From: Nesterenkonia alba DSM 19423
Lineage (GTDB): Bacteria > Actinomycetota > Actinomycetes > Actinomycetales > Micrococcaceae
NCBI RefSeq assembly: GCF_000421745.1
Contig: NZ_ATXP01000001.1
Location: 186,001-250,000 of the forward strand
Length of the DNA: 64,000 nucleotides
Direction of reading: 5' to 3'
The notes beneath the pieces are model-generated. The model saw only the letters and a program-made list of their open reading frames with translations, did no database searches and had not been told where the DNA came from. This document shows positions 27,996 to 35,098 of the stretch, piece after piece. A program made the translations under genes and the position numbers. Within the stretch, counting starts at the first letter, position 1. The number at the start of each line of letters is the position of its first letter.

Positions 27996-29756
27996 ATGGC
28001 ACAGGACGATAACGGCGAGCAGCACCGGCACGATCACGACGACGCCACCCGCCCCCTTCCCCCGCACCAGCAGCAGCCTCAGCAGCCCGAACGGGGTCAG
28101 CCGCAGACCGGAGATGAGCCGCCGCGCCAGCCGGAGCAGCACCGGCCTGAGCCGCGTCAGCCCCAGCCCGGGGAACCGACCCCGGGGTGGGGTAGCCGAC
28201 CGCCGGTACCGCCGTCGTTCCCCGGGGCCGGCTCCCAGCCGGGTCAGTACCGTCCCGGCGGGGACTCCCATCAGCCGCAGCGGCCAGGGCAGTATTCCCA
28301 GCCTGGTTCCCACCGTTCCCCATCCGCCCACCCGGCTGGACCCTCGTTGTCAGCTGGGCAGTCACCATTCGCTCAGCCTGGGGCAGGCGGCCACTCCGGT
28401 GGGGGGTACGGCGGGACTCCGCAGCCTTCTCCACAGCCCGACCGGCAACCCAATCAGTGGACCAACCCTCCGGAACCGGCGCAGCGGCAGCGTCGGCGCG
28501 GTGTCGGCATCGGGGTGTTGCTGGTGTGCATGGTGCTTGCTGGACTGCTCGGCGGGGGTGTGGCTGCCGGTGCCCTGACCCTGGCCAACTGGGCCACCGG
28601 GCCGCAGGCGGGGGAGGTGGAGGAGACCATCGATGAGCCCGGCGACGGGGTGGAAGTCAACGACCCGGACAGCGCGACAGTGGTCACCGCTGCGGCCGCA
28701 GAGGCCTCGCCGTCGGTGGTGACTCTGGCCGTGGGCGCTGAGGACGGCGCCGGTTCAGGCTCGGGCATCATCCTGGATGAGGAGGGGCACGTGCTGACCA
28801 ATACTCACGTGGTGACCCTCGGTGGAGCCACCGCTGAACCAGAGATCTACGCCCGCCTGGCCGATGGCCGGACCTCCTCGGCTCAGATCGTGGGCCTGGA
28901 CCCGCTCAGTGACCTGGCGGTCATCCGACTCGATGACGCCGAAGACCTCACCCCGGCCGAACTGGGCAGTTCCTCCGACCTCAATGTGGGGGACCGGGCG
29001 ATCGCCATCGGCTCCCCCTTAGGTCTCTCCGGCACTGTGACCGACGGGATCATCTCCACCCTGGACCGGACCATCCAGGTGGCCTCTGCCGCCGTGGAGG
29101 ATGAACCCGGCATCGAACAGCCCGAAGAGGACGACGGCGGGGAAGGCTTCGAGTTCTACTTCCCCGACCAGGAGGAAACCCCGCAGACCCAGGGGCAGAT
29201 CTACCTCAACGTCATTCAGACTGATGCCGCCATCAACCAGGGCAACTCCGGTGGGGCGCTGGTCGACTCCGAAGGCCGGGTGATCGGCGTCAACGTGGCC
29301 ATCGCCTCCACCGGGGGCATGTTCGGTGAAGGAGCCGGCAACATCGGGGTGGGGTTCTCCATCCCGATCGACTACGCGCAGCGGGTCGCCCAGGAGCTCA
29401 TCGAACACGGGGAGGCCAGCCACGGACTACTCGGGGTCACCGCCACCACGGCGACCCCCGACCCGGAGCTCAATGAGGAGATCCTCGAGGCTTTCCTCAA
29501 TGAGGACCCCGATGTGCCCATGCCTGAAGGATTCCCCGCCGGGGCCCTGGTCACCCAGGTCTCCGATGAGGCCCCCGCGGCGGAGGGCGGGATTCAGCCC
29601 GGAGACGTCATTACCGAGGTGGAAGGCCGCCATGTGGAGGACCAGATCGCACTGACTGCGATCATCCGTGAGTACGCCGCCGGAGAGACTGTCACCATCA
29701 CCGTGCAGCGGGATGGCGAGGAGTACTCCACCGAGGTCACCCTCAGCGGGATGTGA
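27996..29756 (+). CDS. HtrA/DegP-type serine protease with PDZ domain
   Basis: 586 residues. Residues 1-165 are a Pro/Gln/Gly-rich cytoplasmic tail, 169-195 the membrane anchor, about 225-440 a trypsin-like domain with catalytic His271 (T-N-T-H-V-V), Asp306 (S-D-L-A-V-I) and Ser418 (G-N-S-G-G-A), and about 490-580 a PDZ domain. An acidic 35-residue loop is inserted around 368-402 before the serine. The layout matches mycobacterial PepD/HtrA proteases, which handle misfolded envelope proteins. AAGGA before the ATG. Its last codon overlaps the PIG-L gene. Confidence 0.92.
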   Translation: MAQDDNGEQHRHDHDDATRPLPPHQQQPQQPERGQPQTGDEPPRQPEQHRPEPRQPQPGEPTPGWGSRPPVPPSFPGAGSQPGQYRPGGDSHQPQRPGQYSQPGSHRSPSAHPAGPSLSAGQSPFAQPGAGGHSGGGYGGTPQPSPQPDRQPNQWTNPPEPAQRQRRRGVGIGVLLVCMVLAGLLGGGVAAGALTLANWATGPQAGEVEETIDEPGDGVEVNDPDSATVVTAAAAEASPSVVTLAVGAEDGAGSGSGIILDEEGHVLTNTHVVTLGGATAEPEIYARLADGRTSSAQIVGLDPLSDLAVIRLDDAEDLTPAELGSSSDLNVGDRAIAIGSPLGLSGTVTDGIISTLDRTIQVASAAVEDEPGIEQPEEDDGGEGFEFYFPDQEETPQTQGQIYLNVIQTDAAINQGNSGGALVDSEGRVIGVNVAIASTGGMFGEGAGNIGVGFSIPIDYAQRVAQELIEHGEASHGLLGVTATTATPDPELNEEILEAFLNEDPDVPMPEGFPAGALVTQVSDEAPAAEGGIQPGDVITEVEGRHVEDQIALTAIIREYAAGETVTITVQRDGEEYSTEVTLSGM

Positions 29757-30541
29757 TGAGAGCCCCGGTGACACGGCACGCCCCGGTCAGAGAGTCCACC
29801 CCGGCAGAGCTCATCGACCAGCTCGGTATCCGACGGGTGCTGGCATTCGCTGCCCATCCCGACGACGTCGACTTCGGCGCCTCCGCCACCCTGGCCGCTC
29901 TCAGCGACCACGGTGTGGAGGTCACCCTCTGCTTGCTCACCGCCGGGGACGCGGGAGGCTTCGATCCTGCCCGCTCCCCGGAGGAGACCGCGCGAATCCG
30001 AGCTGAGGAGCAGCGAGCCGCCGCTGAGGTCGTGGGGATCTCCGAGGTGGTGCTGCTCACCGAGCGGGACGGGTTCGTCGCCCCGACCTATGAGCTGATC
30101 GGTGAGGTGGTGCGGCAGATGCGCAGGGTGCGCCCCGACGTCGTGCTCTCATCCCACCCAGAACGGGCCTGGGACCGGCTGCAGAAGTCCCACCCCGACC
30201 ACCTCGCCTGCGGGGAGGCTGTGGTGCGCGCCGCCTACCCGGCAGTGGAGAACCCCTTCGCCTACCCGGAGCTGACCGGCCAGGGGCTCGAGGCGTTCAA
30301 AGTCCGGCACCTGTTGCTCATGGGCGCGCCCGCCGAGCGGGTGAACCTCACCGTGGATGTTGGCGGCTTCGAACAACGCAAGCTTGAGGCCCTGGATCGG
30401 CATTTCACGCAGCACCGCGACGCCGAACGGATGCGCGGATTCGTCCTGGACCAGTTGCGCACCACGCACGCCTCAGGCGGATACGCCGAGGCGTTTCACC
30501 ATGTGGTGGTCAATGACGAGGACACCATCTCCGGCTTCTGA
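29756..30541 (+). CDS. PIG-L/LmbE family deacetylase
   Basis: 261 residues. The zinc-binding A-H-P-D-D-V-D-F-G motif is at 33-41 and the third metal ligand lies in H-P-D-H about 110 residues later. PIG-L enzymes remove acetyl groups from N-acetylglucosamine-type sugars; MshB and Mca of the mycothiol pathway belong here, but this member cannot be placed safely in either group. ATG overlaps the protease stop by one base (TGATG); a GTG one codon earlier is possible. Convergent with the sigma/anti-sigma gene, one base apart. Confidence 0.85.
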   Translation: MRAPVTRHAPVRESTPAELIDQLGIRRVLAFAAHPDDVDFGASATLAALSDHGVEVTLCLLTAGDAGGFDPARSPEETARIRAEEQRAAAEVVGISEVVLLTERDGFVAPTYELIGEVVRQMRRVRPDVVLSSHPERAWDRLQKSHPDHLACGEAVVRAAYPAVENPFAYPELTGQGLEAFKVRHLLLMGAPAERVNLTVDVGGFEQRKLEALDRHFTQHRDAERMRGFVLDQLRTTHASGGYAEAFHHVVVNDEDTISGF

Positions 30542-30542
30542 G

Positions 30543-32306
30543 TCAGGCGTCGTCGGGATCCTCGGGGAGCCCTTCTTGTAACGGCAGGTCAGCTACGGAT
30601 TCGCCGGTGGGACGTTCCTCACCGCGGATCTGCTCCACGGTGACCTGCAGGTACTGGTACTGGGCGATGTTGTGGATATCCACGCCCTCTTCTTCGAGCT
30701 CTTCGGGTGTGAAATTCCCCAGGGAGGAGGGGAGGGAATCGTCCACAGGCAGCAGCCACAGCTGGTAGGTGGCGTTTTCGTTCTCCAGATCCGGCACATC
30801 GCTGAACTCCACGAAGGCGACGTCCTCTTCGGCGGAGATGACCGCGTGGATCTCACCGCCCTCATGCATGGGGTGCCCTTCGATGACCACGGCGTTCTCA
30901 TCCGCCTCGGCAATGGCCTGGGTGTCCTGCCCGCGGCTGATGCCCCAGATGACCACCGCGCCGATGGCAACGACGGCCAGGAACCCGGCCACCAGCATCC
31001 ATCGTTTGGCCTTGGGCTTCTGCCGTTCGGTCTCCTCGGTCTCGGCACCGAAGCTTTCGACCATGCTCATACCAACTTCCTGCTGGCTCTCGGCGACCGT
31101 GCCGAGGATTTCATCGAGCAGGCCCGAAGGCGGGGGCACCGGGTGGGCGGCGAAGATCTCAGCGAGGGTACGGCGGGCCGCTAAGACGCGGGTATCCCAC
31201 TGCTGGGCCTGGTCGGCAGAGGCCGTCAGCGCGGCTTCCTCCAATAAGGCGCGTTCGCGGTCATCGATGGCGTCCAAGGCGTAGAGCTCAGCCAGCTCGG
31301 TGAGGAGTCCCTTGTCCAGGTCCGCTGCAATCTCCGGGGTGAAGTTGCGGTTGACTCCGCTGCCGCGGGTGACGTCATCCTTAGTCACCGCCGCCCGCAG
31401 GATCGGATCGGGCTCGGCTTCACGTTCGGTCCGGGCCGCGTGCAGCCGGGCCATGGCATCGCGCAACCGGGACTTCACCGACGGGATCGCAGCACCGACG
31501 GTCTCAGCCACCTGCTGGTGAGTCTGACCGGTCAGGTACGTCAGGGCCAGTGCCTGGACCTGCGAGTCAGACAGGGGGATGAGATCTTCGATGACCTCTT
31601 CGGGCAGACCGGCCACCCCGCCGCCCTGATTCTGCGGAACAGGGGAGAGCGGGATGGGCTCGGCGAGGCCTTCGCGGAAGCGTTCGACGACGATCCGATG
31701 GACTAAGGGAACCAACCATTCCAGCACGAGCTCGTACTCATTGGGTCGGTAGCTGGCATCTTCACCGGCAGTCTGATCCGCAGCCGAGGGGTCCGCTGGG
31801 GAGGCATCCTGCGCCTGGGTGGTCTGCGGGCCCGGACCGGCGAACTCATCAGTGAGCAGCTGGGAGGTTTGGGTCTGCACGCGCAGGTCCCGGGCTCGGG
31901 CATCGGCCTGGTCCCACAGGTGCTGGTAGACCGCTGTGGTGGCAGCAGCGGCACCTTCGGCGGTGGCGTGCATCAGCAGGGTCAGCCCATAGACGACATC
32001 CGAGGTCGCCTCGTAGAACGCGGAGAAGCTCGCCGAGTGGCCACGGGCGGTGCCGGTGAGCAGATCCGCCAGGGTGGGGTTCTCCGGCAGCGCGGCGAGG
32101 TCCGGGGCTTCACCCTCAGCCTCATCGTCTTCTGTTTCTGTAGGTTCGGTGCTGTCCGGGTCGCCGGCGACGTCATCGGCCTCGGGGTACTCCCCGGATG
32201 CGTGCTGTAAGTCAGCATGCTCCCAGCCAGTCGCCTCCGGCTCTACGGGCTCGGGGGCGTCGTCGGGGGAGTCCTCAGGGTGGCGTCCGCCGGCGGGGGT
32301 CGTCAT
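30543..32306 (-). CDS. Fused ECF sigma factor and RskA-like anti-sigma factor
   Basis: 587 residues in one uninterrupted frame. 1-80: acidic and disordered. 88-214: sigma region 2 (F-Y-E-A-T-S-D-V-V-Y-G and V-Y-Q-H-L-W, then V-H-R-I-V-V-E-R-F-R), split by an acidic insertion at about 136-188. 243-290: sigma region 4 helix-turn-helix (L-S-D-S-Q...L-T-G-Q-T-H-Q-Q-V-A-E...S-V-K-S-R-L). 333-405: RskA-like N-terminal sigma-binding helices (L-L-T-E-L-A-E-L-Y-A-L-D-A-I). 436-457: transmembrane helix. 471-580: the extracytoplasmic RskA domain (Y-Q-L-W-L-L-P). Sigma factor and inhibitor are normally separate adjacent genes (SigK/RskA). Here the sigma part is tethered to the membrane. TAGACT seven bases before the ATG suggests a leaderless message. 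Sigma region 2 is divergent, so activity is uncertain. Confidence 0.8.
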   Translation of the reverse strand: MTTPAGGRHPEDSPDDAPEPVEPEATGWEHADLQHASGEYPEADDVAGDPDSTEPTETEDDEAEGEAPDLAALPENPTLADLLTGTARGHSASFSAFYEATSDVVYGLTLLMHATAEGAAAATTAVYQHLWDQADARARDLRVQTQTSQLLTDEFAGPGPQTTQAQDASPADPSAADQTAGEDASYRPNEYELVLEWLVPLVHRIVVERFREGLAEPIPLSPVPQNQGGGVAGLPEEVIEDLIPLSDSQVQALALTYLTGQTHQQVAETVGAAIPSVKSRLRDAMARLHAARTEREAEPDPILRAAVTKDDVTRGSGVNRNFTPEIAADLDKGLLTELAELYALDAIDDRERALLEEAALTASADQAQQWDTRVLAARRTLAEIFAAHPVPPPSGLLDEILGTVAESQQEVGMSMVESFGAETEETERQKPKAKRWMLVAGFLAVVAIGAVVIWGISRGQDTQAIAEADENAVVIEGHPMHEGGEIHAVISAEEDVAFVEFSDVPDLENENATYQLWLLPVDDSLPSSLGNFTPEELEEEGVDIHNIAQYQYLQVTVEQIRGEERPTGESVADLPLQEGLPEDPDDA

Positions 32307-32313
32307 AGGCTCG

Positions 32314-32319
32314 AGTCTA
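32314..32319 (-). promoter_or_regulatory. -10 element (TAGACT) of the sigma/anti-sigma gene
   Basis: Minus-strand TAGACT ends seven bases before the ATG at 32306. No ribosome binding site is present, so a leaderless transcript is likely. Confidence 0.45.
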
Positions 32320-32359: not shown

Positions 32360-32833
32360 TCACGCTGCACCGTGGAAGTCCTGTTGCCGCCAGGCCTCGT
32401 AGACGGCAACCGAGACCGCGTTAGCCAGGTTGAGGCTACGCCGAGCTGGCAACATCGGGATACGCACCTGCTCGGTGATCCGAGGGTCGTTTTTGACGGT
32501 GTCATCCAGCCCGGTGGACTCCCGCCCGAAGAGCAGCACATCACCGTCGGCATAGCTGATCTCGGTGTGGGTGCGGCTGCCCTCAGCGGTGAACGCGAAG
32601 ATACGCTGAGGCCGCAGGTGAGTATAGGCGGCCTCCAGGCTGGTGTGTTCGGTCATCACCGCCAGGTCGTGGTAGTCGAGTCCAGCGCGTTTGAGCCGGG
32701 CGTCGGAAAACTCGAAGAGCGTCGGTCCGGCGATGTGCAGCCGGAAACCGGCTACTGCCGCCAGGCGGATGATGTTACCGGTATTGCCGGGGATCTCCGG
32801 CTGGTCGAGCACCACGTGCAGGTTCAGGCTCAT
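32360..32833 (-). CDS. trmL: tRNA (cytidine(34)-2'-O)-methyltransferase TrmL
   Basis: 157 residues, the compact size of TrmL. It is a SPOUT methyltransferase that 2'-O-methylates the wobble base of tRNA-Leu. E-I-P-G-N-T-G-N-I-I-R at residues 13-23, L-L-F-G-R-E-S-T-G-L and the knot motif I-P-M-L-P-A-R-R-S-L-N-L-A-N-A-V-S are all present. ATG start lies one base after the stop of the J-domain gene, so the two are probably co-translated. Confidence 0.93.
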   Translation of the reverse strand: MSLNLHVVLDQPEIPGNTGNIIRLAAVAGFRLHIAGPTLFEFSDARLKRAGLDYHDLAVMTEHTSLEAAYTHLRPQRIFAFTAEGSRTHTEISYADGDVLLFGRESTGLDDTVKNDPRITEQVRIPMLPARRSLNLANAVSVAVYEAWRQQDFHGAA

Positions 32834-32834
32834 C

Positions 32835-33857
32835 TCAGCTGGCCTCCGGTGCGGCGAGCTGGGTACGCAGAGCGGCCATGAGATGCCGGTCGACCAGGTT
32901 GGCCCGCTCAGAACTGCTCAGGGCGTTAGCGATATGCCCCACAGCCCGCCCGGCGGCCAGCGGCGGGTCGGCGTAGCGCCCCTGCCCCTGGGTCTCCACC
33001 ACGGGGTGGAACAGGTCACCATCTGCGGCATGGAGGATGAGCTGGGAACTGACCTTCACACCCGCACCAGCGGGGGATCCTTCTGGCAGCAACCCCGCCA
33101 ATGTGGTGCGGAGCTTGGCGGCCTGAGCGGCGAGATTCGGCGGGGTGATGCGCCGGCCGGCCACCCGCAGGGCCCGTCCGTCCCAGGCCGCTGCGGTGGC
33201 GGGGACTTCCAAGGCGGCCACCACGACCAGCGAGGTCCCTGCGATGACCACATGCTCAGCGCGTTCGCCCCCCTTGGGGTGCTGCAACCGACCTTTGCGG
33301 TCACGCCCCGGGGGACCGAGATGAACGTCGTTGAACAGCCGGGCAGCCGGAAGCTGCTCGAGCAGATGCCGTTGCAGCAGTTCCACGGTCCGTGTGTGCA
33401 GCCGCTGGCTTCGGCCTGCGCCGAAGAGCCCGCTGCGCCGGAACTCGCCGTGGACTTTCTGGCTGGTCAGGGTCAGCGACAGCGGCTGCGGTTCAGACAA
33501 CGGGGGCTGGTAGACCGGTGGCTGGTCAGCTGCTGCGGAGCGGCGCTGCTTGCGATCACCGGTGCGTGGGGCCGGCCGGCGGGTGGCGGTACTGCGCGAG
33601 TAGGTAAAACCTGAGCCTTCCTCCGTGGGAGCTGAGGGCGACTCCTCAGAGGTGCCGCTGCGGCGTCGTCGGTCGTATTCAGCCCGGGTGCTCTCCTCGC
33701 CGAGGACTTCCCAGGCGGCTTGGACGTGGTGGAACTCCTCGGCCGAACCGCCATGGTCGGGGTGAGTCTGGCGGGCACGACGCCGGTAGGCAGCGCGAAG
33801 GGTCGCAGCATCGGCATCGGCGGGCACACCGAGGATGGCGTAGAGGTCATCACTCAT
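32835..33857 (-). CDS. J-domain protein with NERD-like C-terminal domain
   Basis: 340 residues. A J domain (1-60) has the intact H-P-D motif (Q-T-H-P-D-H-G-G), so it should stimulate an Hsp70. There is no Gly/Phe region or zinc finger, so it is not DnaJ proper. After a basic linker the C-terminal 190 residues (about V-H-L-G-P-P...A-E-H-V-V-I-A-G-T-S-L-V-V-V-A-A-L) look like a divergent NERD/nuclease-related fold in which the usual catalytic D/Q-x-K is not seen; this second assignment is tentative. The start is set by the J domain. Coupled to trmL. Confidence 0.7.
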   Translation of the reverse strand: MSDDLYAILGVPADADAATLRAAYRRRARQTHPDHGGSAEEFHHVQAAWEVLGEESTRAEYDRRRRSGTSEESPSAPTEEGSGFTYSRSTATRRPAPRTGDRKQRRSAAADQPPVYQPPLSEPQPLSLTLTSQKVHGEFRRSGLFGAGRSQRLHTRTVELLQRHLLEQLPAARLFNDVHLGPPGRDRKGRLQHPKGGERAEHVVIAGTSLVVVAALEVPATAAAWDGRALRVAGRRITPPNLAAQAAKLRTTLAGLLPEGSPAGAGVKVSSQLILHAADGDLFHPVVETQGQGRYADPPLAAGRAVGHIANALSSSERANLVDRHLMAALRTQLAAPEAS

Positions 33858-33890
33858 CAGAGGCCCCAGCTTACCGAGACATCCCCGGCG

Positions 33891-33896
33891 TAGAAT
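33891..33896 (+). promoter_or_regulatory. -10 element (TAGAAT) of the cysteine desulfurase gene
   Basis: TAGAAT ends eight bases before the GTG at 33905, with no ribosome binding site between, as expected for a leaderless transcript. Confidence 0.45.
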
Positions 33897-33904
33897 CGCC
33901 TGCC

Positions 33905-35098
33905 GTGAGCACACGCTACTTTGACCACGCCGCCACCACCCCAGTGAAACCCACAGCAGTGCGCGTCCTCACTGAGCAGATGCCGGCGATGGCTAATCCT
34001 TCGTCGCTGCACAGCGCGGGACGGCGGGCCCGCTTGGCGGTGGATTCGGCCCGTGAACAGGTGGCCACCAGTGTGGGGGCACACCCCTCGGAGGTGATCT
34101 TCACCTCAGGGGGAACTGAGGCAGACAATCTAGCGGTCAAAGGGCTGTATTGGCAGCGCCGGGCCGAGGACCCCGCTCGGCGTCACGTGCTGCTGCCGGG
34201 GATTGAGCACCATGCGGTCTTGGACACGGCCGAGTGGCTCGAGGCCCACGAGGGTGCGGAACTCATCATCATTCCGGTCAATGCCGACGGCGTGGTGGAT
34301 ACGGTGGCCTTCCACCAGTTGCTCCAGCAGTATGCGGCCACCACCGCGCTGGTGACGGTGATGTGGGCCAATAATGAGACCGGCGCGGTCCAACCGGTGG
34401 CTGAGATCGCTGCGCAGTGCACCGCCGCAGGTGTGCCTTTCCACACCGATGCGGTGCAGGCCTTCGGGGCCCTTGAGGTGGACTTCGCTGCCTCGGGGGC
34501 CTCCACGATGGCGATCAGTGGACACAAGATCGGCGCACCGGTGGGGATCGGTGCACTGCTGGTCCGTCGGGATGTGAAGCTGACCCCCACCCAGCACGGC
34601 GGTGGACAGGAGCGCGATATCCGCTCCGGGACCCTGGATGTGGCGGGGATCTGCGCTTTTGCTGCGGTAGCTGAGGAAGTGATCGCCCAGCGGGAGGAAG
34701 AATCCGCCCGACTGGCGCGGCTGCGCAATGAGCTGCTGGAGGCCGTCGACGGGCTGGAGGGTGTGCACCTGCGGGGACCCGACCCGCGGGTCACCCCGGA
34801 ACAGCGACTGCCGAATAACCTGCACATCACCGTCGATGGTGCTGAAGGTGATTCGCTGTTGTTCATGTTGGATATGGCCGGCTTCGACACCGCGACCGGC
34901 TCAGCGTGTACCGCGGGGGTGCCGCGGCCTTCTCACGTACTGCTGGCCATGGGGCTCTCTGAGGCGCAGGCCCGCGGGGCGCAGCGATTCAGCCTGGGAT
35001 GGACCACCACCGACGACGACGTCGCCGCCCTGGCTGAAGCGCTTCCAGGAGTCATTGCCCAGGCCCGCTCAGCCGGTCTAGCCGCCGACCGACGCTGA
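33905..35098 (+). CDS. Cysteine desulfurase (IscS/NifS class)
   Basis: 397 residues. A PLP enzyme that moves sulfur from cysteine to an active-site cysteine. Y-F-D-H-A-A-T-T-P at the N terminus, the PLP lysine in S-G-H-K-I-G-A-P-V-G and the catalytic cysteine in T-G-S-A-C-T-A-G are visible. Its likely client is MnmA, encoded 540 bp further on the opposite strand; sulfur for tRNA 2-thiouridine, and possibly Fe-S clusters, would pass through it. No scaffold genes (iscU, sufBCD) are nearby. GTG start, TAGAAT -10 just upstream. Confidence 0.93.
   Translation: MSTRYFDHAATTPVKPTAVRVLTEQMPAMANPSSLHSAGRRARLAVDSAREQVATSVGAHPSEVIFTSGGTEADNLAVKGLYWQRRAEDPARRHVLLPGIEHHAVLDTAEWLEAHEGAELIIIPVNADGVVDTVAFHQLLQQYAATTALVTVMWANNETGAVQPVAEIAAQCTAAGVPFHTDAVQAFGALEVDFAASGASTMAISGHKIGAPVGIGALLVRRDVKLTPTQHGGGQERDIRSGTLDVAGICAFAAVAEEVIAQREEESARLARLRNELLEAVDGLEGVHLRGPDPRVTPEQRLPNNLHITVDGAEGDSLLFMLDMAGFDTATGSACTAGVPRPSHVLLAMGLSEAQARGAQRFSLGWTTTDDDVAALAEALPGVIAQARSAGLAADRR

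Follow-up and report, generated by a model that had tools for sequence, protein, structure and literature searches.

A gene coding for a SigK-like sigma factor and an RskA-type anti-sigma factor in one polypeptide is located at positions 30543..32306, on the minus strand, of a stretch of 64,000 nucleotides (the window) from the genome of Nesterenkonia alba DSM 19423 (contig NZ_ATXP01000001.1, positions 186,001 to 250,000). What is established by computation is the fusion itself, its spread, the residues and the promoter that have been lost, and the selection acting on the protein. Judging from its sequence, the fused sigma half has probably ceased to be a sigma factor, and the reading that fits the data best, with a probability just short of even, proposes for the membrane-anchored ex-sigma module the role of a tethered regulatory unit.

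Domain composition of the fused protein

The gene consists of a single frame of 587 amino acids starting with the ATG at 32306, which confirms a preliminary description of this DNA that had reported the one-frame fusion at these coordinates without its strand. Along the frame, SigK-like sigma2 and sigma4 are followed by an anti-sigma domain of the RskA type, a single transmembrane helix and RskA_C, and its proposed assignment to the SigK/RskA type is borne out by matches in NCBIfam, Pfam and the sequences of the 4NQW structure. In particular, the Pfam matches of the window protein to RskA_C (E = 1.3e-11, residues 444-569) and RskA_N (1.2e-8, residues 335-382) are both over the cut-off and that to Sigma70_r4 (2.6e-5, residues 245-288) lies exactly at it; Sigma70_r2 gave no match at E <= 1. 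The NCBIfam models for the anti-sigma factor (2e-25, 90.1 bits) and for SigK (5e-20, 71.9 bits) are matched below their respective cut-offs of 100 and 226 bits, and a sequence search of the PDB returned the SigK chain 4nqw_A (3.2e-8) and the RskA chain 4nqw_B (1e-4). Since a profile of the Nesterenkonia residues 75-235, i.e., of the divergent sigma2 part, can be aligned with unfused SigK by hhalign at E = 8e-15 (probability 98.4; 5e-18 for the sigma4 part, both E-values being those for one comparison), the sigma2 part is homologous to SigK despite its weak region 2.

The N-terminal tail (residues 1-74; 32085..32306, minus strand as for all parts of the gene) is strongly acidic, with 24 D/E and one K/R. 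It is followed by the remnants of sigma regions 2.1-2.2 (residues 78-135; 31902..32075), where the core-binding Q/E have gone and hydrophobic positions are retained, and 2.3-2.4 (residues 187-222; 31641..31748), which are separated by a RARDLR segment and an insert (residues 136-186; 31749..31901) that are specific to Nesterenkonia, the insert being short or missing in the other fused genera. Of the acidic insertion of about 50 residues described earlier, the insertion as such stands, if only for Nesterenkonia, but it is merely mildly acidic (8 D/E, 3 K/R), the acidic part being the tail. Region 4 (residues 241-292; 31431..31586), with the recognition-helix residues K278, S279, R280, R282 and D283 retained, leads via a linker between the two former genes (residues 293-330; 31317..31430) to the RskA-type anti-sigma domain (residues 331-405; 31092..31316), which is recognised by Pfam and by the PDB sequence match. 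Behind it lie a single hydrophobic stretch that suits a transmembrane helix, as judged by hydropathy only (residues 438-456; 30939..30995), and the presumably extracytoplasmic RskA_C (residues 459-578; 30573..30932). As in RskA, RskA_N and RskA_C thus flank one transmembrane helix; a separate rskA gene beside sigK is not found, the two halves forming a single protein in 30/30 loci of the genus.

Loss of sigma factor features

The retention of residues was scored in 44 fused proteins at positions where 12 or all of the 13 unfused SigK proteins have the same residue, and as a control served 16 SigK-like paralogues, one per genome from 16 of the 30 genus genomes and each located beside its own RskA gene. 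The identity to SigK is 34% for the fused proteins and 37% for these two-gene paralogues. Retention amounts to 61% versus 47% in region 2.1, 35% versus 41% in 2.2, 38% versus 65% in 2.3-2.4, 10% versus 40% in the linker between sigma2 and sigma4, 35% versus 40% in 4.1 and 51% versus 59% in 4.2 for fused proteins and paralogues, respectively. In total retention the two groups are clearly apart only in region 2.3-2.4 and in the linker, and the biggest contrast lies in which positions stay. The region 2.2 residues Q and E, which in sigma70 contact the RNA polymerase core and are present in 13/13 unfused SigK proteins, were found in only 2/44 (Q112) and 1/44 (E113) of the fused proteins as compared to 16/16 and 14/16 of the paralogues. 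The same holds for L106 (0/44 versus 15/16), G130 (0/44 versus 16/16) and T138 (1/44 versus 16/16), and in region 2.4 for R143 (0/44), A144 (0/44) and D146 (1/44), each present in 16/16 paralogues, as well as for V148 (0/44 versus 15/16), whereas R142 and R149 stay in 30/44 and 40/44 fused proteins (16/16 paralogues each). Accordingly, the region 2.4 motif HRRAVDKVR does not occur in the fused proteins, which also have K147 in 0/44 cases. Conversely, four positions are better kept in the fused proteins than in the paralogues, namely A122 (44/44 versus 4/16), H141 (41/44 versus 2/16), T111 (38/44 versus 2/16) and V145 (30/44 versus 3/16), and D109 is poorly retained in both (8/44 and 0/16).

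With respect to Pfam, Sigma70_r2 is matched by three unfused SigK proteins at 5e-17 to 6e-17 and by the best of six fused proteins other than that of the window at 0.017, and it exceeds the cut-off in none of the seven fused proteins scanned. The redox cysteine pair (133/183) is complete in 13/13 unfused and 0/44 fused proteins, and the window protein contains no cysteine at all in residues 75-587. However, the loss of the cysteines alone decides nothing about activity, since they matter for the activity of SigK in Mycobacterium tuberculosis, whereas a SigK of Nocardia that lacks them is still active (PMC7509140). As defining features that were tested are missing, the fused protein is not classed among the SigK sigma factors. 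The loss of Q/E, most of region 2.4, the Sigma70_r2 match and, as outlined below, the promoter lends strong support to the earlier suspicion that region 2 might have ceased to be that of a true sigma factor.

Conservation of the sigma part

Within Nesterenkonia, the ratio of non-synonymous to synonymous substitution rates (dN/dS) is lowest in region 2.4 (0.18), followed by regions 2.1-2.2 (0.23), sigma4 (0.23), the linker between sigma2 and sigma4 (0.24) and the anti-sigma domain (0.28), and it is higher in the fusion linker (0.36), the insert (0.47), RskA_C (0.49), the transmembrane helix (0.51) and the fast evolving N-terminal tail (0.74). These values are based on 377 of 406 pairs among 29 of the 30 genus sequences (without L008) having a dS of 0.15-1.2, and the alignment of the fused proteins for the linker excluded L008 and L009. 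Because the sigma part, the insert aside, is under the strongest constraint in the protein, its sequence argues that it has been rebuilt rather than abandoned.

A region 4 helix-turn-helix is present, and of its recognition helix the residues K, S and R are found in 41/44 and R and D in 44/44 fused proteins, the exceptions to the former being three proteins from one further Micrococcaceae genus, g14. This loss of the sigma4 recognition helix in g14 looks like a further step along the same path as the loss of sigma2.

In the SigK-RskA complex, L177 of SigK and L18 of RskA form a contact pair between sigma4 and the anti-sigma domain (PMC7406223). In the fused proteins, both sides of this pair are largely hydrophobic (sigma side 39/42, anti-sigma side 41/42), and RskA_N is over the cut-off in both Nesterenkonia proteins scanned. 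Since the hydrophobic pair between sigma4 and RskA helix 1 is largely retained, the sigma module of the Nesterenkonia proteins likely docks on its anti-sigma domain in cis.

Promoters and the SigK regulon

The SigK-type promoter CCATCC-N15-CCGAAT was found with at most one mismatch in the 400 nt upstream of 13/13 unfused loci (seven exact) but of 0/44 fused loci, for which the best case is one locus with two mismatches. The strict pattern in equal 400-nt windows gave 10/13 and 0/44, respectively, and with control spacers of 12, 14, 16 and 18 nt no unfused locus showed fewer than three mismatches. A TANNNT element is located 5-10 nt before an in-frame start at 42/44 fused and 13/13 unfused loci. 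In the window it reads TAGACT, a housekeeping-type -10 element (32314..32319, minus strand) 7 nt before the ATG, and may function as a leaderless promoter, in the way in which TANNNT elements near start codons are read in actinobacteria. The idea that this element replaced the SigK-type promoter in the fused genes was rejected, as the unfused genes carry both and the fused genes have lost only the distal, SigK-type one. Since the latter was lost and TANNNT retained, the expression of the fused gene is now probably independent of SigK.

In genus g10, one of those with separate sigK and rskA genes, a genome scan gave a clear result, with 109 N15 sites in 23 genomes in contrast to 48 for two control spacings. 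Among the 23 loci fetched there, one site per genome, 19 have it outside predicted coding sequence, and three of these sites directly precede fasciclin genes. In g32, 3/7 fetched N15 sites are inside coding sequence. The scan is ambiguous in Nesterenkonia, where 19/23 of the SigK-type sites in 30 genomes fall inside predicted coding sequence. Fasciclin genes (PF02469), which we take to be of the MPT70/83 type, are present in 19/48 genomes of the fused clade and 29/32 unfused genomes, and none was found in the window genome. These data are suggestive of a loss of the SigK regulon in the fused clade but do not prove it.

The Nesterenkonia fasciclin gene adjoins another two-gene sigma-RskA pair in 13/16 fetched paralogue loci. 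At L128-L138, L140 and L141, fasciclin, sigma and RskA genes stand together, which looks as though the regulon under SigK control elsewhere had passed to that pair. In g10 (L063-L085), SigK-type promoters precede genes for fasciclin lipoproteins and for what are presumably DUF4383-like proteins and an oxidase-like protein, such that a SigK regulon is readable there.

Distribution and origin of the fusion

The fused gene, of which the window genome has one copy, is a single open frame in 30/30 sampled genomes of Nesterenkonia, a genus classified within the Micrococcaceae, the open frame spanning from about residue 71-79 to 566-587. The sample of the family comprised 295 genomes, from which seven loci of genus g4 and 20 further regions were taken. 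Fused genes were found in 14/14 loci from five further genera (g2, g4, g14, g16 and g21), and adjacent but separate sigK and rskA genes in g5, g10, g18, g25, g26, g28, g31 and g32 (13 loci, i.e., all unfused ones among the 20 further regions; the RskA half was extracted for ten). Separate neighbouring genes in related genomes, for which a search had been suggested in the preliminary description, thus do exist, and in 11/13 fetched loci they follow the same trmL gene. The named relatives found are four Nesterenkonia, one of them a metagenome-assembled genome, and Garicola koreensis; L002-L006, being named duplicates of other loci, are excluded from all counts. That a sequencing or assembly error joined two genes, the alternative named at the outset, is refuted by these independent genomes, as the frame is open across all 30 loci of the genus and the 14 loci of the five other genera, and can be given practically no weight.

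In a tree of SecA, all seven fused rows fall on one side of a single branch (SH-aLRT 98), a separation matched by 0/500 shuffles. This tree, made by a quick method from 31 rows covering 30 of 32 genera, gives no direction of change, because it was built without an outgroup and midpoint rooting places the root among the fused rows. In an RskA tree rooted on an outgroup, 20 fused rows form one clade (support 100) beside ten separate RskA; it was likewise made by a quick method, with 20 of the 44 fused proteins, ten RskA and eight outgroup rows, the long branches of the latter being flagged. Both topologies are compatible with one fusion event, and an ancestral sigK-rskA operon might therefore have been fused once, in the ancestor of the six Micrococcaceae genera.

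Synteny was read for the window among the Nesterenkonia copies and at the comparison loci L036-L062. Upstream of the fused gene are what we take to be a trmL-type methyltransferase gene (32360..32833, minus strand) and a DnaJ-domain protein gene (32835..33914, minus strand), each found at 14/14 other fused and 11/13 unfused loci. On the other side lie a convergent gene, presumably for a PIG-L deacetylase (29753..30541, plus strand; 14/14 other fused loci and 8/13 unfused ones within reach), and one presumably for an HtrA-type serine protease (27996..29756, plus strand; 14/14 and 7/13, respectively). None of these four neighbours was found in the stretches fetched at the g10 locus L053 or the g5 locus L057. 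Since L057, the only g5 locus, shows no shared neighbours, orthology by place holds for seven of the eight unfused genera. An in-frame GTG at 32363, upstream of the ATG, would extend the fused protein to 606 amino acids and overlaps the stop codon of trmL as GTGA.

Loci reduced to RskA_C

At ten loci from nine other genera (g8, g11, g12, g17, g20, g22, g23, g27 and g30), the space between trmL and the PIG-L gene holds a gene for a protein of 182-244 amino acids with one strongly hydrophobic segment and a match to RskA_C at 1.5e-19 to 2e-6, the two weakest matches being just under the Pfam cut-off (L207:2087-2635, L208:2035-2595, L210:2032-2616, L211:2020-2631, L213:2046-2594, L214:803-1372, L215:2164-2787, L220:819-1553, L221:771-1406 and L222:914-1468). 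Neither RskA_N nor a sigma gene was found at these ten loci, which have no room for the latter. In g6 (3/3), g7, g9 and one of two g3 genomes, trmL is near the PIG-L or HtrA gene with nothing recognised in between, and in g13, g15, g19 and g24 no RskA_C frame was found within about 1.5 kb of trmL, the neighbours being rearranged or not found; this survey around trmL covered the sampled genera except for g29. Given the reduced loci in nine genera, the loss of SigK at the trmL locus is recurrent and RskA_C is able to persist without the sigma factor, which suggests that RskA_C has a role independent of it.

Proposed role and alternatives

As the parts with which a sigma factor turns genes on seem to be lost and yet the protein is closely conserved, it probably serves a new function. 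In the proposed scheme, the sigma half would, once fused, have lost the core-binding Q/E of region 2.2, most of region 2.4, the redox cysteines and the linker between sigma2 and sigma4, together with the autoregulatory promoter, and would have kept, under strong purifying selection, its hydrophobic pattern and the sigma4 recognition helix. The product would be a single-pass membrane protein with RskA_C outside and a cytoplasmic ex-sigma module beside its own anti-sigma domain, on which it may be held by docking in cis. As a membrane-tethered unit, this module might contact DNA or RNA polymerase via sigma4, with or without proteolytic release, and would not itself start transcription. That the fused protein is such a one-piece membrane regulator, in which RskA_C as a sensor controls a tethered module that does not recruit RNA polymerase to promoters, is a plausible but tentative proposal, somewhat less than evenly probable.

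Several observations weigh against this scheme. R149 and R142 are retained in most fused proteins, the changes D to E and K to R in Nesterenkonia are mild, and the total retention in region 2.2 is little below that of the paralogues; as some 2.4 residues stay and the 2.2 totals are close, a residual or altered sigma activity is possible. In 23 Nesterenkonia genomes, CCATCC-N15-CCGAAT occurs at 20 sites in comparison to 12 for two control spacings. In g14 (L047-L049) the recognition helix is degenerate in 3/3 proteins, with KSR changed to RTL, and DNA binding can therefore not be the role common to all fused proteins. Docking in cis is weakened outside Nesterenkonia, because RskA_N is below the cut-off or missing in 5/5 fused proteins scanned from g4, g2, g16, g21 and g14. 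Moreover, the fused group represents one evolutionary event, so that the 44 proteins cannot be counted as independent cases, and the dS underlying the selection estimates is high in many pairs.

The g14 helix and the faint RskA_N would also fit a structural relic that is useful through its extracytoplasmic RskA_C, with the cytoplasmic sigma and anti-sigma domains serving only as a stable cap for folding, and the nine genera holding only a small RskA_C membrane protein at this locus point the same way. Nevertheless, the relic appears rather unlikely, as the sigma regions of Nesterenkonia are the most constrained and RskA_C is among the least constrained parts (dN/dS 0.18-0.23 versus 0.49), and as the recognition-helix residues are retained in 41/44 proteins. 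Unlikely, too, is a working sigma factor of altered promoter specificity that would be silent in the membrane and freed by intramembrane proteolysis. Fused membrane-anchored sigma/anti-sigma proteins such as IutY do act in this way (PMC5411451, PMC8999054), sigma4 and some 2.4 residues are retained, the SigK-type sites of Nesterenkonia exceed the controls, and the window genome codes for a site-2-type protease (PF02163, M50; G000:C2:37041-38360). However, the core-binding Q/E, the linker and most of region 2.4 have gone, although paralogues at a similar distance from SigK retain the key positions, the autoregulatory promoter has gone as well, Sigma70_r2 is under the cut-off in seven fused proteins, and most SigK-type sites of the genus are within coding sequence. 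The protease does not discriminate between the readings, because it was found in 14/14 genomes tested as well as in 14/14 control genomes. Finally, the pseudo-sigma part might cap the anti-sigma domain as a decoy in cis and, once displaced, let it inhibit another sigma factor in the manner of the PhyR/NepR partner switch. PhyR indeed shows that a sigma-like domain whose contacts to promoter and core have degenerated can act as a mimic (PMC8103513), and SigK-like paralogues as potential targets were fetched from 16/30 genus genomes. This switch is nonetheless improbable: each of these 16 paralogues has its own adjacent RskA, and the window genome keeps the fused gene although the best SigK paralogue in it is not a close one (31% identity, E = 9e-11).

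Relation to known systems

That sigma/anti-sigma fusions had already been described, as the preliminary description stated, is correct for IutY and for ECF48, ECF52, ECF53 and ECF36 (PMC5411451, PMC8999054). The SigK-RskA pair of M. tuberculosis (4NQW) belongs to the same two families and shares with the fused protein the domain order, the anti-sigma helices, the single transmembrane helix and RskA_C. It is, however, encoded by two genes and includes a functional sigma factor with cysteines 133/183 and a regulon containing mpt70/mpt83 (PMC7509140), whereas in the fused protein, which is one chain, the cysteines have gone and region 2 has been dismantled. IutY of Pseudomonas putida (ECF243) likewise combines sigma and anti-sigma parts in one membrane-anchored polypeptide, but it serves in iron-starvation cell-surface signalling and its working sigma domain is released by Prc and RseP (PMC5411451); the fused protein, in contrast, is of the SigK/RskA type and has probably stopped being a sigma factor. 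A C-terminal membrane-bound anti-sigma-like extension is also known from the actinobacterial ECF48, ECF52 (SCO4117) and ECF53, where it carries a zinc-finger (likely ZAS) domain (PMC8999054). The extension of the fused protein is of the RskA type instead, and the cysteine-free residues 75-587 contain no such zinc finger. In PhyR of the alphaproteobacterial general stress response, a sigma-like domain was kept as well despite degenerate core and promoter contacts, but once activated PhyR titrates the anti-sigma factor NepR (PMC8103513), whereas the sigma-like domain described here is in one chain with a membrane anti-sigma domain.

Full-text searches of an open collection, in which many subscription papers are missing, brought up neither a fusion of SigK and RskA with sigma2 dismantled and retained throughout a genus nor any case from the Micrococcaceae. 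Sigma/anti-sigma fusions have so far been discussed as sigma factors carrying their own switch. In the present family, one syntenic place harbours two genes, their fusion with sigma2 dismantled or, in other genera, just a membrane RskA_C protein, which raises the testable question of what a sigma factor can become once it is permanently bound to its inhibitor. Genes of this kind may thus be misnamed where they are annotated as 'SigK' or 'anti-sigma factor'.

Further observations

A search of 396 genomes across the order revealed, among the matches listed, none outside the family that spans both halves without a stop; as only four candidates per genome were scored, rarer fusions could have been missed. 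One match from family f13 (L188; G477:C25:120003-121325) extends over both halves but is interrupted by one stop (857-amino-acid frame) and is possibly a near-fusion; its RskA served only as an outgroup row. In two g31 species (L051:3760-3800 and L052), sigK and rskA share a frame and are separated by a single TGA, such that a read-through product is possible.

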